A model generated the notes under the pieces. It was not told the origin of the DNA, did no database searches, and worked only from the letters and a program-made list of their open reading frames with translations. The position numbers and the translations under genes were made by a program. Positions 3,314 through 58,829 of a stretch of 64,000 nucleotides of DNA are shown here, piece by piece. Numbering within the stretch: position 1 is the first letter of the stretch; every line of letters begins with the position of its first letter. The DNA comes from Lachnospiraceae bacterium (GTDB lineage Bacteria; Bacillota; Clostridia; Lachnospirales; Lachnospiraceae). Where the stretch lies: the NCBI GenBank assembly GCA_015057445.1, contig SVEI01000006.1:1-64000 (forward strand), in the 5' to 3' direction.

Positions 3314-3379
3314 ATTGATGCAATTGGTGGTTTCTAAAGCCATCTATACTATATATTTTATAAAATGGAGAGTAATAAG

Positions 3380-4519
3380 GTGTCTGATTTTAGAGAGGAC
3401 AATTACATAGATACCCAGTTTCTAGCAGGAAATGAAAAGGAAAATATCAAGGCAGCTTCTAGGATTTTACAAAACAATGGATTAGTTGCATTTCCCACAG
3501 AAACAGTATACGGATTAGGTGGCAATGCTCTAGAACCTAATGCTGCAGCCAAAATATACGCTGCCAAGGGCAGACCTAGCGACAATCCCCTGATTGTTCA
3601 CATAGCAGATACCAAGTCCGTGTATGAGCTTGCCAAAGAAGTACCAGAAAAAGCAAAGCTACTTATGGAAGCGTTTTGGCCAGGACCACTTACCATTATC
3701 CTTCCAAAGAAGGAGCTTGTACCTGATGGCACAACTGGTGGACTTAACACTGTGGCAATCCGTATGCCTTCTCACCCAGTAGCCCTTGACTTAATTAGAG
3801 AAAGCGGATTGTATATTGCCGCACCTAGCGCAAACACTTCTGGAAGACCTTCCCCTACCCTGGCAGAGCATGTTATGGAGGATATGAATGGTCGCATTGA
3901 AATGATTCTGGATGGTGGAGCTGTAGGTATAGGCATAGAATCTACAATAGTAGATTTGACAGGTGATGTTCCTGTGATTCTTAGACCTGGATTTATAACC
4001 AAGAGTATGCTTGAGGAAATTGTGGGAGAAGTGACCATTGACCCTGCACTCATAGAACCAGATCCTAATCTTAGGCCAAAGGCTCCAGGTATGAAATACA
4101 CACACTATGCGCCTAAAGGGGAACTGACTATAGTGGAAGGTGAAGCTTTTGATAATAGTGGAATTACCTGCACCGAAGGGAACAAGAAAGACAACAACTA
4201 TATGGTTGACGCTAATTCTACTAGTAAAATCGTAAGAAAAATCAACGCATTAGTTGACGAGAAGAAGGCTGCCGGCTTCAAAGTTGCCGTAATCACAACC
4301 AGCGAAAACTCAGACAAATACAACTGTGATCATGTACTAATTGCTGGAGACAGAGCCCAAGGTGAAACCATTGCAGCAAGACTTTATCAGGTTTTAAGAA
4401 AGTGCGATGAACTAAGGGTTGACTATATATTCAGTGAAGCCTTCAATGAGGGTGAACTAGGCGGAGCAATAATGAATAGACTGCTGAAGGCCGCAGGACA
4501 CAGAGTAATCAAAGTGTAA
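3380..4519 (+). CDS. tsaC: L-threonylcarbamoyladenylate synthase (Sua5-type)
   Basis: A two-domain Sua5/YwlC protein of about 380 residues that makes threonylcarbamoyl-AMP from Thr, bicarbonate and ATP for the t6A37 modification of ANN-decoding tRNAs. The N-terminal YrdC domain shows LVAFPTETVYGLG, KGRPSDNPLIVH and the SANTSGRPSPT loop. After the linker (PKAPGMKYTHYAPKG) comes the Sua5 C-terminal domain. A GTG at 3380 is chosen because GGAGAG lies 7 nt upstream; the ATG at 3365 has no such site. An AT-rich promoter region separates it from the divergent atp operon. It is convergent with rpiB across a structured element. Confidence 0.92.
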   Translation: MSDFREDNYIDTQFLAGNEKENIKAASRILQNNGLVAFPTETVYGLGGNALEPNAAAKIYAAKGRPSDNPLIVHIADTKSVYELAKEVPEKAKLLMEAFWPGPLTIILPKKELVPDGTTGGLNTVAIRMPSHPVALDLIRESGLYIAAPSANTSGRPSPTLAEHVMEDMNGRIEMILDGGAVGIGIESTIVDLTGDVPVILRPGFITKSMLEEIVGEVTIDPALIEPDPNLRPKAPGMKYTHYAPKGELTIVEGEAFDNSGITCTEGNKKDNNYMVDANSTSKIVRKINALVDEKKAAGFKVAVITTSENSDKYNCDHVLIAGDRAQGETIAARLYQVLRKCDELRVDYIFSEAFNEGELGGAIMNRLLKAAGHRVIKV

Positions 4520-4528
4520 TATAAAAAT

Positions 4529-4652
4529 AAGAGGATGCGCAATTATAGTTCTTGGCCGGACCTGCCTAGGGTGGGTCCACGCTGACGCGAAAAATGGTCA
4601 GCTTAGTCCCCACCCTGTCGCGGCCGGATGAAATTTGTTGGCGCATCCTCTT
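4529..4652 (+). ncRNA. Structured RNA-like element, copy A
   Basis: A 124-nt element lies between the convergent tsaC and rpiB genes. A 12-bp perfect outer helix (AAGAGGATGCGC pairs with GCGCATCCTCTT) encloses a helix AGGGTGGG/CCCACCCT and an apical helix GCTGAC/GTCAGC. The single-stranded-like core contains GCCGGACCTGCC and CGCGGCCGGA. A second copy at 29457-29580 on the minus strand shares this core but has different, still paired, helices, which suggests selection on structure. It begins 9 nt after the tsaC stop and is followed by an AT-rich tail, so it could also end transcription. Strand is assigned by the gene it follows. I do not recognise the family. Confidence 0.6.
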
Positions 4653-4681
4653 AATATTTTATAAACATTGATTAACCTTAT

Positions 4682-5110
4682 TTAATCTTCTATCATGTTA
4701 ATTCGCCTGATGTGTCTTTCATCATTTGAGAATGGTGTATCAAGGAATGTATCCACAATCTTAAGTGCAAGTCCCGGACCTGTAGTTCTAGCACCCATAG
4801 CAAGAATATTTGCATTGTTATGCTCCTTTGTTGCCTGAGCTGAGAAGCAATCTGCACAAAGAGCTGCTCTAATTCCTTTTACCTTATTTGCAGCAATCGA
4901 AATTCCTATTCCTGTTCCACAGATAAGAATACCAAGTTCGCACTCACCATCAGCCACTGCATGAGCAACCTTCTTTGCATATTCTGGATAATCTACAGAG
5001 TCTGTGCTGTAGCATCCAAAATCTTTAAATTCAAAGCCTCTCTTTTCAAGATGAGCCTTAACCTCCTGCATCAATTCAAATCCACCGTGATCACAACCTA
5101 AAGCTAACAT
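4682..5110 (-). CDS. rpiB: Ribose-5-phosphate isomerase B
   Basis: A 142-residue LacAB/RpiB-family isomerase interconverting ribose-5-phosphate and ribulose-5-phosphate in the non-oxidative pentose phosphate pathway. The start (MLALGCDHGGFELMQEVKAHL), the active-site block ILICGTGIGISIAANKVKGI with its Cys-Gly-Thr-Gly, and HNNANILAMGARTTG are family signatures. CGGAGGA precedes the ATG. It stands alone, convergent with tsaC. Members of the family can also act on allose-6-phosphate, which cannot be excluded here. Confidence 0.93.
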   Translation of the reverse strand: MLALGCDHGGFELMQEVKAHLEKRGFEFKDFGCYSTDSVDYPEYAKKVAHAVADGECELGILICGTGIGISIAANKVKGIRAALCADCFSAQATKEHNNANILAMGARTTGPGLALKIVDTFLDTPFSNDERHIRRINMIED

Positions 5111-7299: not shown

Positions 7300-7946
7300 T
7301 AAAAATACTCCTTTATGAGCTTTCGTCTCTCACCATAATAATTAGTCAAGTCCATCAAGCCATCATCATGTATGCACCATGGTTTTAACATATTAGGTAC
7401 AACAACCTTATATCCAGCCTTTCCAAATTCCAAGCTTTGTGATACATCGTAGAAGTCCCACTTATCAAATATATCATCTCTCCAAGGCAAATCATATTGT
7501 GTTGCCATCAAAAGGCCATCCACTGCCTGAACCTGACAATAATCACCTTCAACCTGACCGTAATCAATCATGTTCATTGAATATATATTGTTTGCAAATA
7601 TTTTACCCACTCTATAGCCCTTCCACATAACCTTATTCTCAGGCAACTTAGGACTACCAACCATACCTATCATCCCGATGGTTTCATCCTGAAATATCTT
7701 AATCAACTTATGAATAAAATACTTTTCTATAATCATCACATCCTGATGCATATACACCTTATACTTTGCATCTGACGTTTTCATTGCTTCATTATAACCA
7801 GCAGTCATACTGTCAGCTCCACCAACGGTTAACACATCTATGGAGTATCCCCTTGGAACATTTAAATTATTAATATAATAAATTGCTTCTTCAGCATACT
7901 GCGTATTATTCGTACACATGATAAAGCATATTTTATTTTGATCCAT
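7299..7946 (-). CDS. GT2-like glycosyltransferase (short GT-A form)
   Basis: About 215 residues resembling the Glyco_tranf_2_5 group of GT-A enzymes. Visible signs are ICFIMCTNNTQYAEEA at the N-terminus, GGADSMTAGYNEAMKTSD, a metal-site-like YKVYMHQDVMII and a late WDFYDVSQSLEFGKAGYKVVVP acceptor region. The ATG at 7946 is chosen because GAGG lies 7 nt upstream, while the ATG at 7952 is too close to it. It is the third gene of the four-gene minus-strand cassette and shares a TAATG junction with the next gene. The donor sugar cannot be told from sequence. Confidence 0.7.
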   Translation of the reverse strand: MDQNKICFIMCTNNTQYAEEAIYYINNLNVPRGYSIDVLTVGGADSMTAGYNEAMKTSDAKYKVYMHQDVMIIEKYFIHKLIKIFQDETIGMIGMVGSPKLPENKVMWKGYRVGKIFANNIYSMNMIDYGQVEGDYCQVQAVDGLLMATQYDLPWRDDIFDKWDFYDVSQSLEFGKAGYKVVVPNMLKPWCIHDDGLMDLTNYYGERRKLIKEYF

Positions 7947-28707: not shown

Positions 28708-29148
28708 CTATCTTCTCTCATCTACCATAAGACCTGCAAGTTCCCAAGCCTTTGCTATCATATCAAGAGCCTTCTCTGGTGGTATCTCTCTGATTACCTC
28801 GTCTGTATCCTTATCTCTAACTGTTATAGAGATACGATTAGTCTCTTCATGATACTTAAAGCTACAGCTTGTACGTCTAAGCTGATTATTGATATTGTCA
28901 ACTGCTGACTTAACCTGTTCAGTTGAGACTTCCTTTTCCTTCTGAACTACTCCAGCCTGTTGCTCTTGTTCGCCGTATTGTGACTGTCCACTCTTAGTGT
29001 CTGTCATAACAGGCGCTACTCTTTCAGGTGTAGCTGCAGATACAGGTACAGAACCCATATCGGTCACCTGAATTTCAGGTCTATTTACCTTCTGTGTGCT
29101 TGTGGTGTAGCTCATTGCACTTGCACCACCAATTCTTTCAATTCCCAT
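28708..29148 (-). CDS. flaG: FlaG family flagellar protein
   Basis: About 146 residues. The C-terminal half is the FlaG domain (NNQLRRTSCSFKYHEETNRI, then DKDTDEVIREIPPEKALDMI), while the N-terminal half is a low-complexity Thr/Gln/Val-rich region. FlaG influences filament length and is encoded before fliD in many bacteria, as here. The ATG at 29148 is preferred because GGAGGTG lies upstream at suitable distance; a GTG three codons earlier overlaps that site. Confidence 0.9.
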   Translation of the reverse strand: MGIERIGGASAMSYTTSTQKVNRPEIQVTDMGSVPVSAATPERVAPVMTDTKSGQSQYGEQEQQAGVVQKEKEVSTEQVKSAVDNINNQLRRTSCSFKYHEETNRISITVRDKDTDEVIREIPPEKALDMIAKAWELAGLMVDERR

Positions 29149-29281
29149 AATTTCCACCTCCGTGTGTATTCGTCCCTTTCCTTATATAGGGATATAATAA
29201 AGTTTAAATGTCTCTATAACTAGTATTGTAAACAGCTTTTCTAGACATACGCCCAGCACTAGCCTTTTTCTGCTATCTTTT

Positions 29282-29411: not shown

Positions 29412-29624
29412 GGGTTGCGCCAAATTAAGCACTGGCCATATCATCACATATTACTATGAGCCTGTGCCAAGAATTTTTGTTTCCGGCCGCGCCAGGTGTG
29501 AGGTCTTAGCCGGACATCTTAGTCCGGCGGGTGCCTCACCCTAGGCAGGCCGGCTAGTAATCTCTAACCGCACAGGCTCATTCTCGTAACACTAGGAGCC
29601 AGTGCGTACATGGCACAGCCCCTA
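29412..29624 (-). ncRNA. Structured RNA-like element, copy B, with extended outer helices
   Basis: The 124-nt core at 29457-29580 is closed by an 11-bp perfect helix (TGAGCCTGTGC with GCACAGGCTCA) and contains GCCGGCCTGCCTAGGGTG and CGCGGCCGGA, as does copy A at 4529-4652. Its inner helices AGGTGAGG-like/CCTCAC and GCCGGAC/GTCCGGC differ in sequence from copy A but stay paired. Outside the core, GCACTGGC pairs with GCCAGTGC and GGGCTGTGCC with GGCGCAACCC (one mismatch, one wobble), extending the rod to about 213 nt. It begins 21 nt downstream of the csrA stop in the same direction. No T tract follows, so it is not a normal terminator. The family is not recognised. Confidence 0.6.
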
Positions 29625-29645
29625 GCTTTATATTGTAAAGAACTG

Positions 29646-29861
29646 CTAAAACAGCTTCTTAAGGCTCTCTATATCGATAGATGCTGCAGTAGCTCTATTC
29701 TCCTCTTGAATTTGAGCATAAATCTCTTTTCTATACACAGGTACACTCTTAGGAGCGTTAATACCTATCTTAATCTGGTCACCTTTTACTTCTAGGACAG
29801 TAAGTTCAATGTCACTGCCTATCATAATTGACTCTCCCTGTTTTCTTGATAGTGCTAACAT
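29646..29861 (-). CDS. csrA: Carbon storage/translational regulator CsrA
   Basis: A 71-residue RNA-binding dimer. The sequence [20 protein letters not shown] with the conserved N-terminal Leu-Ala-Leu-Ser-Arg-Lys and the [21 protein letters not shown] block containing the RNA-contacting Val-x-Val-x-Arg stretch make the call firm. GGAAGGTGAG precedes the ATG at 29861, one nucleotide after the fliW stop (TAATATG). Its expected target is the flagellin leader, which carries a GGA hexaloop hairpin. Confidence 0.96.
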
Positions 29862-29862
29862 A

Positions 29863-30327
29863 TTACTCACCTTCCTTTTCTTTCATAGCCTGAATAGCCT
29901 GGTAAGCATTAAACTTAACCGGATATTCTGAATTCTCAACTATAACCTGCATAGCCTTTCTCTCTACAGTATTAATAATAAATGGCGCTTTAAGGTTTGC
30001 TGTCATTAGTGTAAGATCCGAAGGTATAGAAAGAGTTACAAATATAAGTAAATCCGCATCAGCAGGGTCTCCAATATTCTTCATAAGTTCATCTTCTATA
30101 GTTGGTGTATATGCATCCATTAAATCAAGTGGATTAATGACAGGAAGTACCATAAGTGGCTCCTCCATAGACTGCAACCAGCTAATCTTAGATCTCTCTT
30201 CTCTCTCTGAATCATAAATAAGAGCAAAATTCTTAAGATTTTCAAATCCAATAATACCATTAGGGAAGTTGATTATCTTTTCGTCCTCAATATCAATAGT
30301 TCCAAAAAATTTAGTCTCTGCTACCAT
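29863..30327 (-). CDS. fliW: Flagellar assembly factor FliW
   Basis: A 154-residue protein that binds CsrA non-competitively and is itself titrated by cytoplasmic flagellin. The signature [20 protein letters not shown], then [20 protein letters not shown] and [20 protein letters not shown] identify it. AAGGAGGGTG precedes the ATG. It is immediately followed by csrA and preceded by flgL, so it is the end of the flgM-flgN-flgK-flgK-flgL-fliW-csrA run. Confidence 0.96.
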
Positions 30328-49168: not shown

Positions 49169-49499
49169 ATTTAATTACCTCATTTCTTTCTGGCAAATGT
49201 AGCTTCCTCCATTGGTTCACATTGTTTGCTGTAAAGCATAAAACAAATTACCAAATCAAGCATTGTAATCTCAAACAAACACAACAAAACACATAGGGAA
49301 CACAAATCCTATTCCCTAGTTTAAGTAATTATTCTGCCATCATCTGCCTATATATAAAAAAGTTTAACCAGTCTATTATTATATATGCCCGCCTTTTGAT
49401 CCTCATTCACGTTATGAAGCTACACAAAAATACTTTATTTGCATCACAAAAATTTTGTTCTTATTATGCAAACAAGCACATATACTAATACACTGCACT
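49169..49499 (-). other. Long 5' leader between ribozyme and glmS
   Basis: About 330 nt separate the end of the ribozyme core from the glmS ribosome-binding site (ATGAGG). The sequence is AT-rich with one modest hairpin TAGGGAA/TTCCCTA near 49292-49318. I find no open frame or second riboswitch. Confidence 0.5.
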
Positions 49500-49655
49500 G
49501 ATTGCCTGAATTTGTTTTGAAGTTACCCTCATATTTGTCCAGACATAACACGCTCAGTTGCGCGAAAGAGCATCCGCCGAATCCTTCGATAAACTCTTTA
49601 CCTCGTTAACCCTGCATAAAGTATCGTCACCTGCAAGGTGCATGGCGCTAAGGTT
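49500..49655 (-). ncRNA. glmS ribozyme (glucosamine-6-phosphate-dependent)
   Basis: On the minus strand the conserved core reads TTAGCGCCATGC, GTTAACGAGG, TTTATCGAAGGATTCGGCGG followed by ATGC, then CTGAGCGTG, all diagnostic of the glmS ribozyme. Self-cleavage is expected between 49649 and 49648, just 5' of GCGCC. The cofactor is the product of the downstream gene, so high glucosamine-6-phosphate triggers cleavage and decay of the mRNA. Helix P1 is short here, and the 3' boundary is approximate. Confidence 0.93.
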
Positions 49656-49698
49656 CCTAACCTTTCGAAATCTGCATCCTCCATTTACAGACGGTGTT

Positions 49699-58683: not shown

Positions 58684-58829
58684 CTCTTATTGCTCGATTC
58701 TATCTTAAATCGCTCAGGTCGGCACCTTCCATCAATTCACGCCACACTCCATACAAGGAATTGTCACTTTAATCTCCGGGGTTGCCGTGGCTTCATAGTC
58801 CCTTATGACTCCACCACTCTGAATAAGAG
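58684..58829 (-). promoter_or_regulatory. SAM-I (S-box) riboswitch
   Basis: P1 is CTCTTATT (58822-58829) with AATAAGAG (58684-58691). Core motifs on the minus strand are AGAGTGGTGGAG, CTATGAAGCCACGGCAACC and AAGGTGCCGACCTGAGCG, all diagnostic of S-box. P4 is GCGATT/AATCGAGC. The 3' P1 strand plus GGATTTGA can pair with TCAAATCCGATTATT to form the antiterminator, so SAM binding frees the terminator. Confidence 0.95.

Follow-up and report, generated by a model that had tools for sequence, protein, structure and literature searches.

Two copies of a structured element in the window

The window considered here, that is, the whole stretch of 64,000 nucleotides analysed in the genome of a Lachnospiraceae bacterium, carries two copies of one structured element. 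Copy A is flanked by the converging genes tsaC (3365-4519, plus strand; Sua5/YrdC) and rpiB (4682-5110, minus strand), and copy B by csrA (29646-29870, minus strand) and flaG (28708-29157, minus strand), with fliW located upstream of csrA (gene identities from Pfam). The coordinates, stems and core that an earlier note on this DNA had given for the two copies hold when re-read in the sequence, and the compensatory paired changes that it had seen between them are genuine, one architecture being common to both. However, the core that it had described as unpaired is mostly paired: the segments CCGG.CC and GGCCGG form a helix, designated P2, and the true internal loop consists of TGCCTA opposite TGTCGC. 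Also, copy B has to be read on the minus strand. The features are as follows:

4529..4652, plus strand: the complete copy A, terminator-like stem included (covariance-model match 4527-4654)
4529..4540, plus strand: copy A, 5' arm of P1 (AAGAGGATGCGC), the site-specific terminator-like stem, pairing with 4641-4652
4641..4652, plus strand: copy A, 3' arm of P1 (GCGCATCCTCTT)
4556..4562, plus strand: copy A, 5' arm of P2 (CCGG, a bulged A at 4560, CC), pairing with 4622-4627
4563..4568, plus strand: copy A, 5' side of the conserved internal loop, TGCCTA
4569..4575, plus strand: copy A, 5' arm of P3a, variable across the family, pairing with 4609-4615
4581..4602, plus strand: copy A, P3b hairpin (GCTGAC/GTCAGC) with the apical loop
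4616..4621, plus strand: copy A, 3' side of the conserved internal loop, TGTCGC
4622..4627, plus strand: copy A, 3' arm of P2, GGCCGG
29457..29580, minus strand (sense): copy B, whole element (covariance-model match 29454-29583)
29542..29547, minus strand: copy B, 5' side of the conserved internal loop, TGCCTA
29489..29494, minus strand: copy B, 3' side of the conserved internal loop, TGGCGC
29592..29627, minus strand: short hairpin (stem of the GGGGCTGTGC type) that lies between copy B and csrA, likely a relic or a plain terminator-like stem

T-rich tails lie outside P1 of copy A on both strands; no T-run is seen by eye in the printed flanks of P1 of copy B. Compared with dinucleotide shuffles, both copies fold exceptionally well (z of -7.8 for A and -9.1 for B, with none of 200 shuffles as good for either), and so, about equally, do their complementary strands (z of -8.5 and -8.2, respectively). 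The sequence CCTGCCTAGGGTG is found in the window twice exactly and five times with at most two mismatches, against 0.64 occurrences expected. In Rfam 15, neither copy reaches the gathering threshold of any family, in line with the earlier note, which knew of no class with this core; the sub-threshold matches to copy B (miRNA, viral, ArcZ) were taken as chance. Five further loci of the family (L236, L237, L255, L090 and L096) also gave no Rfam match above threshold, so that a known Rfam class was rejected for all of these. The window additionally contains a SAM (S-box) riboswitch (58684-58829, minus strand; RF00162, 70 bits) and a glmS ribozyme (49493-49660, minus strand; RF00234, 59.8 bits).

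A family dispersed in a few related genomes

With at most one mismatch, CCTGCCTAGGGTG matches seven times in the genome of origin (hereafter G000); exact matches occur in 5 of 99 genomes, G000 included, all of them within the genus, compared to 1 of 99 for the backward control. For RCCTGCCTAGGGW, the backward control gave no matches in six genomes. The 3' motif GKCGCGGYCGGAA, with one mismatch allowed, is specific in G003, G012 and G018 and unspecific in G032 and G031, where the backward control equals or exceeds the motif (24 vs 19 and 10 vs 7, respectively); it was used solely for finding long or truncated copies.

A covariance-model search, which the earlier note had called for in Lachnospiraceae genomes, was run on the 37 genomes of the genus and revealed further covarying homologues in seven genomes. 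At E<=0.01, the first model gave 37, 44, 52, 50, 16 and 2 matches in G000, G003, G012, G018, G031 and G032, respectively, and none in 31 of the 37 genomes, while a model from 115 copies gave, at E<=1e-3, 41, 54, 59, 54, 15 and 10 matches in the same six genomes, 4 in G011 and none in the remaining 30; some of the matches in these totals may be weak ones that fall on the opposite strand of copies already counted. Since the models match the complementary strand of many copies, with up to 57 bits, the strand assignment of copies rests on the asymmetric loop. Counted as distinct places, there are at least 150 elements, namely at least 24, 36, 39, 42, 8 and 1 in G000, G003, G012, G018, G031 and G032, respectively, so that four species have at least 24 to 42 each and three more have fewer. 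Copies A and B, taken in the earlier note for a pair, are thus two members of a family with dozens of copies per genome, which rules out a two-copy RNA pair. The copies of G032 and G011 have other helix sequences but follow the same plan and possess a similar loop (TGCCTG/TGGCGC, TGTCTG/CGCCGC and others).

RNAalifold alone gave another inner fold, which became the basis of model R1; the hand-drawn fold underlies models R2 and R3. Of 397 genomes in the bacterial family, R2 matched G000 only, a weak negative because the filters were strict and 8 candidates per genome were scored (G000 itself yielded only 8). A pattern scan of contigs returned 61 stretches. Four Lachnospiraceae MAGs (SIG296, RGIG4033, RGIG6221 and RGIG8543) account for 40, and three of these MAGs are labelled as coming from a ruminant gut (roe deer, sheep and water deer); five of the remaining 21 stretches were inspected, none showing the architecture, and the other 16 were taken as chance uninspected. 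Viral contigs contained no match to a stricter pattern, and carriage by phages was discarded on these grounds. No description of the family was found in the literature, covered mainly through openly readable articles judged largely by title, so this family of a few gut bacteria is apparently new to description.

Architecture and covariation

From the outside inwards, the element consists of P1, AT-rich linkers of ~14-20 nt, P2, a 6x6 internal loop, P3a, P3b and the apical loop. P1, with 10 bp in the model, is represented by 90 distinct stems among 115 copies. P2 comprises 6 bp, CCGGCC/GGCCGG, with variants such as CCGACC/GGTCGG, CCAGCC/GGCTGG and CCCCACC/GGTGGGG. The internal loop reads TGCCTA opposite TG[T/G]CGC in 87 of the 115 copies, P3a (7 bp) occurs in 35 distinct forms, P3b is GCTGAC/GTCAGC in most copies, and the apical loop is ACTTAAAACG in 49 of 115. 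Nested, tandem and truncated copies are present as well.

In a MAFFT alignment of 22 copies, the hand-drawn structure leaves 88.7% of the cells paired, compared to 33-45% when one side is slid, and its covariation score is 0.389 vs at most 0.117. When 115 copies (114 distinct) are fitted to the model, an alignment that leans towards the structure, 96.4% of the cells are paired vs 26-44% upon sliding, 28 of the 29 base pairs change on both sides, and none of 500 shuffles, which ignore relatedness, reaches the observed values. The helices covary beyond chance; relatedness and template switching lie within what such shuffles allow.

Position at gene ends and likeness to terminators

Of 122 copies, with orthologous copies taken separately, 63 lie between convergent genes, 51 between co-directional genes, 1 between divergent genes and 7 at contig ends; for comparison, the intergenic gaps of 60 bp or more in 16 loci comprise 12 convergent, 78 co-directional and 22 divergent ones. 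In convergent gaps, the median distance from a copy to the flanking open reading frames is 16.5 nt, and 7 of the 122 copies overlap a mechanically called frame of at least 90 codons. A survey of gaps of 30-700 bp in four carrier contig sets, in which plain hairpins were counted with no T-run required, found the element in 7, a plain hairpin in 12 and neither in 8 of 27 convergent gaps; of the 142 co-directional gaps, 4 contained the element, and of the 29 divergent ones none did. Three element-free relatives have a plain hairpin in 14 of 22 convergent gaps.

T-runs adjoin P1 on the sense side in 86 of 122 copies, on the other side in 73 and on either side in 96, compared to 66 of 244 control windows; both sides are devoid of them in 26 copies, B among them. 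Hence the combination expected of an intrinsic terminator, a stem with a T-run at a gene 3' end, is found in the family, on both strands in copy A and not in copy B, and, given the T-runs and the gene-end position, P1 of most copies resembles a terminator stem. Judged by its sequence context, P1 usually looks like an intrinsic-terminator-like stem, often a bidirectional one. As with intrinsic terminators, there is a stem with a T-run, often of bidirectional form between convergent genes; unlike in them, the "loop" is a structured shared core of ~100 nt instead of a few bases.

A stem bound to the site and a core shared between sites

At orthologous sites (60 pairs), the median identity is 0.79 for the core and 0.60 for the linkers. 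For 107 copies, the median core identity to the closest paralogue within the respective genome is 0.93, and 22 of the 107 have a paralogue at 98% or more. Taking the best of many is expected to give a higher value than a fixed pair would, and an exact core motif had played a part in the choice of the copies. Independent of both these effects is the comparison of 20 same-genome pairs whose cores are at least 98% identical: their linkers are 49% and their P1 stems 37.5% identical, no better than in 803 dissimilar pairs (50% and 50%). The profiles by column, based on pairs that are not independent of each other, follow the same division. The P1 columns are 0.26-0.56 identical in 50 same-genome pairs with the same P3 but 0.48-0.97 in the 60 orthologous pairs, whereas P3a columns 57-59 and 103-105 are 0.92-1.00 identical in the same-P3 pairs (by choice) and 0.35-0.60 in orthologues; the identity profile drops at the ends of P2. 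As far as sequence comparison goes, these data show that P1 and the linkers stay with the site and that the core, from P2 to P3, is common to different sites, which implies that the core is copied or exchanged.

Orthologous sites with and without the core

Among 153 site-by-genome comparisons, 129 sites were occupied in both genomes, a number biased upward because most of the compared loci were chosen for holding a copy, and 24 lacked a recognised core. Some of these 24 contain degenerate elements (e.g. L198 and L205) or are poorly bounded; several are plain hairpins. A contig pair chosen by synteny (G012:C11 and G003:C1) offers five sites, of which three carry the element in both genomes and two are plain in G003. 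Where G018 has AAAAGGACGAGG-element-CCTCGTCCTTTT, the orthologous site of G000 is a plain hairpin, AAAAAGACGAGG-10 nt loop-CCTCGTCCTTTT. A short form of the element within AAAAGCTGTGCGA/TCGCACAGCTTTT in G012 corresponds to a plain hairpin, AAAAGGCTGTGGGA-5 nt-TCCCACAGCCTTTT, in G003, and a second short form of G012 (stem AGACGGTGCG) corresponds to TAGGCTGTGGGA-4 nt-TCCCACAGCCTA, the stems being different. At another site, the element is present in G003, G012, G018 and G031, and G000 has a plain hairpin with an unrelated stem. The plain sites may be either ancestral states or losses. Presence or absence between relatives, as expected of MITEs, is thus seen in the family; inspection of the aligned sites by eye revealed no target-site duplication.

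At the tsaC-rpiB site, G000 and G003 share the element together with the bulged A in P2 (L026/L178) but differ entirely in P3a. The element of G012 is oriented oppositely and its stem is another one; in G031, all that is seen is a hairpin with the stem of copy A, G009 has another hairpin, and no element directly follows rpiB in G018. The csrA site differs among all five main carriers, a tandem pair and a nested copy being among the arrangements found there. Two contigs of the G018 MAG, G018:C22 and G018:C26, both contain the csrA locus with one and the same nested element, a duplication or an assembly artefact. In G009, where no copy of the element was found, rpiB is 95% identical to that of the window but csrA only 84%, so that a chimeric or recombinant origin of this MAG is possible. 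At the site where L203 of G000 and L230 of G012 have the element, G003 has another kind of hairpin, very long and near-perfect (L249, G003:C11).

RNA or DNA as the selected unit

The earlier note proposed a family of noncoding RNAs or structured mRNA tails. Conservation of structure, covariation and location at gene 3' ends have been borne out; that a noncoding RNA is the unit of selection has not. In its fuller form, the RNA scenario envisages a structured RNA in mRNA tails or a processed small RNA, the loop of which would bind a protein that stabilises transcripts or controls termination. Along with the strong covariation and the position at gene ends, the pattern of divergence speaks for it. 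In the 60 orthologous pairs (26 groups, one with the G012 tandem pair), the internal loop differs by 4.7% on its 5' side and 8.3% on its 3' side, P3b by 9.6% and P2 by 12%, compared to 17% for the apical loop, 24% for P3a, 30% for P1 and 34-39% for the linkers. P3b thus appears constrained and the internal loop near-invariant, the latter being either constrained in place or restored by conversion; such a constraint could reflect a host function.

The mismatches tell against this scenario. If the sense strand is read into RNA, G-U should be preferred to A-C, but the cells that deviate from Watson-Crick pairing comprise 33 G-U, 61 A-C and 58 others (32, 42 and 45, respectively, over distinct helices). 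Single-side changes in orthologous P1 stems include 12 G-U, 24 A-C and 15 others, next to 142 double changes, a number that small misalignments of P1 can inflate. Orientation along transcription is not seen either, 19 copies being sense and 32 antisense in co-directional gaps, and the family is found only in a few species of one genus. Two-strand termination would likewise give a strand-symmetric pattern. All this makes the RNA scenario unlikely in our view, albeit one to be reckoned with.

The alternative of a DNA-level origin of the pairing is illustrated by one copy, L205 (2910-3038, G000:C84), in which GCGACA stands opposite TGTCGC, so that its internal loop, asymmetric in the other copies, is a perfect palindrome. 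L205 is the only such copy of 115, and its orthologue, L213, has the canonical loop. The L205 palindrome looks like the footprint expected of DNA template switching, a process reported to create, maintain and repair hairpin stems (PMC8794818, as far as its accessible text goes). Because G-U is not favoured, a sense bias is lacking and L205 bears this footprint, covariation alone is no proof of selection on RNA; the retention of helices despite sequence change, read in the earlier note as the signature of such selection, does not by itself establish it.

Could template switching and ectopic gene conversion alone suffice, the elements being intrinsic terminators with grown loops and no mobility at all? 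The terminator-like P1 with its T-runs, the footprint in L205, the reported ability of template switching to make and maintain hairpins and the occurrence of common cores at different sites fit this possibility. It leaves unexplained why the same ~100-nt core resides at dozens of unrelated sites and why copies are nested in older copies, and template switching would erase the asymmetric loop, which is conserved. Accordingly, we deem an explanation by grown loops quite improbable.

A probable palindromic DNA family in terminator loops

The dispersal, the nesting and the sharing of cores point to mobile or recombining DNA in terminators. We therefore favour, as probable though far from assured, the view that the elements make up a dispersed palindromic DNA family, the ~100-nt cores of which sit in the loops of terminator-like stems, often bidirectional ones, at gene 3' ends and are mobile or recombining. 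Mobility is deduced here from the dispersal, nesting, truncations and differences between sites. The many copies in a single clade, the covariation, the gene-end position with T-runs, the plain hairpins at orthologous sites and the constrained loop also speak for this view. The spread of the core would be that of a non-autonomous element, mobile or recombining, with a preference for hairpin tips. Its insertion would be tolerated since the core, on folding back, keeps the two terminator arms joined, so that termination survives. The stems could be kept paired by DNA template switching and/or by selection for termination on both strands, and the invariant internal loop might be the recognition site of a mobilising or binding protein. 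At present, cores would be copied or exchanged between the resident sites of a genome, either by ectopic gene conversion or by a dedicated process. The weakest point of insertion into a loop is that nested copies carry their own P1 away from known terminators, so that P1 may travel with the core. Also counting against the view are the absence of a mobilising enzyme among the two families sought (below) and of a recognised target-site duplication, the large share of sites occupied in both genomes, biased upward as it is, the 26 copies devoid of T-runs, the 7 that overlap a reading frame and a conceivable host function of the constrained loop.

A more specific version is conceivable, in which a hairpin cassette targets terminator loops as well as its own earlier copies, overwriting the resident cores and leaving the terminator stems in place, with an enzyme that reads the asymmetric internal loop on folded single-stranded DNA. 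We mention this version tentatively and would sooner doubt than accept it. Comparable are integron attC sites, which are recognised via a folded single strand and have a variable stem sequence and conserved unpaired bases; unlike at attC sites, no cassette genes were seen at the copies of the family.

As to the enzymes, two families were sought, Y1 transposases and reverse transcriptases of the RVT_1 type. No Y1 transposase (PF01797, E<=1e-8) was found in G000, G003, G012, G018, G032 and G011, and G031 has a 43-aa fragment, several of the seven carriers being incomplete MAGs (80-91%) and three being 97-99% complete. For RVT_1 (E<=1e-6), these six carriers gave no match either, and G031 gave two; derivation from a group II intron or retroelement was rejected because of this absence from six carriers.

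The absence of an intact Y1 transposase bears on the REP/REPIN elements, which are mobilised by the RAYT (TnpA-REP) transposase. The family resembles such elements in being dispersed, extragenic and palindromic with a high copy number (PMC3733652, PMC3116915, PMC8266576, in their accessible parts), and its dozens of copies at gene 3' ends fit as well. However, the hairpin of the family is single and long (~100-130 nt), unlike the elements of 20-40 bp with a GTAG or CGTC tag that the accessible part of PMC3733652 describes, and none of the seven carriers, including the three that are 97-99% complete, has an intact Y1 transposase at E<=1e-8. An assignment to REP/REPIN elements thus appears most improbable. 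MITEs, in turn, are short, non-coding, imperfectly palindromic, dispersed and nested, as described in the available text of PMC10969869, and the family shares these features but shows neither a recognised target-site duplication nor a matching transposase (Y1 and RVT_1 having been sought). In Streptococcus pneumoniae, the BOX, RUP and SPRITE repeats, which are small, interspersed and predicted to form hairpins, are over-represented between convergent genes and regarded by the authors of their description as parasitic and currently dormant; SPRITE resembles a Rho-independent terminator (PMC3049150, accessible part). The present family is likewise made of hairpin repeats enriched between convergent genes; as far as the descriptions go, it is set apart by the site-specific terminator-like stem with only the inner core shared, by the full replacement of helices and by the near-invariant internal loop. 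We class it with the dispersed palindromic repeats, as a variant of these, and not as an RNA class.

If the preferred scenario of cores spreading through terminator loops is true, the repeat spreads where insertion does little harm and is rendered harmless by folding. The family also holds a warning for RNA discovery, since it strongly passes simple covariation tests despite DNA-level signs, namely strand-symmetric mismatches and copy-to-copy sharing of cores. The split between a site-bound stem and a shared core makes the mechanism directly testable.

Unusual copies

Short forms of ~77-83 nt, in which P2 and P1 are paired and P3 is missing, lie at 7588-7668 and 9984-10066 of L188 (G012:C11). 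In L236 (G012:C21) and L237 (G031:C478), a similar extra structured insert of ~110 nt, which gave no Rfam match above threshold, replaces the P3b loop. The insert has a stem AGTCGTGC/GCACGACT and a motif CGCAACAAGTTGCTCGGTGTC that is found in only these 2 of 255 loci.
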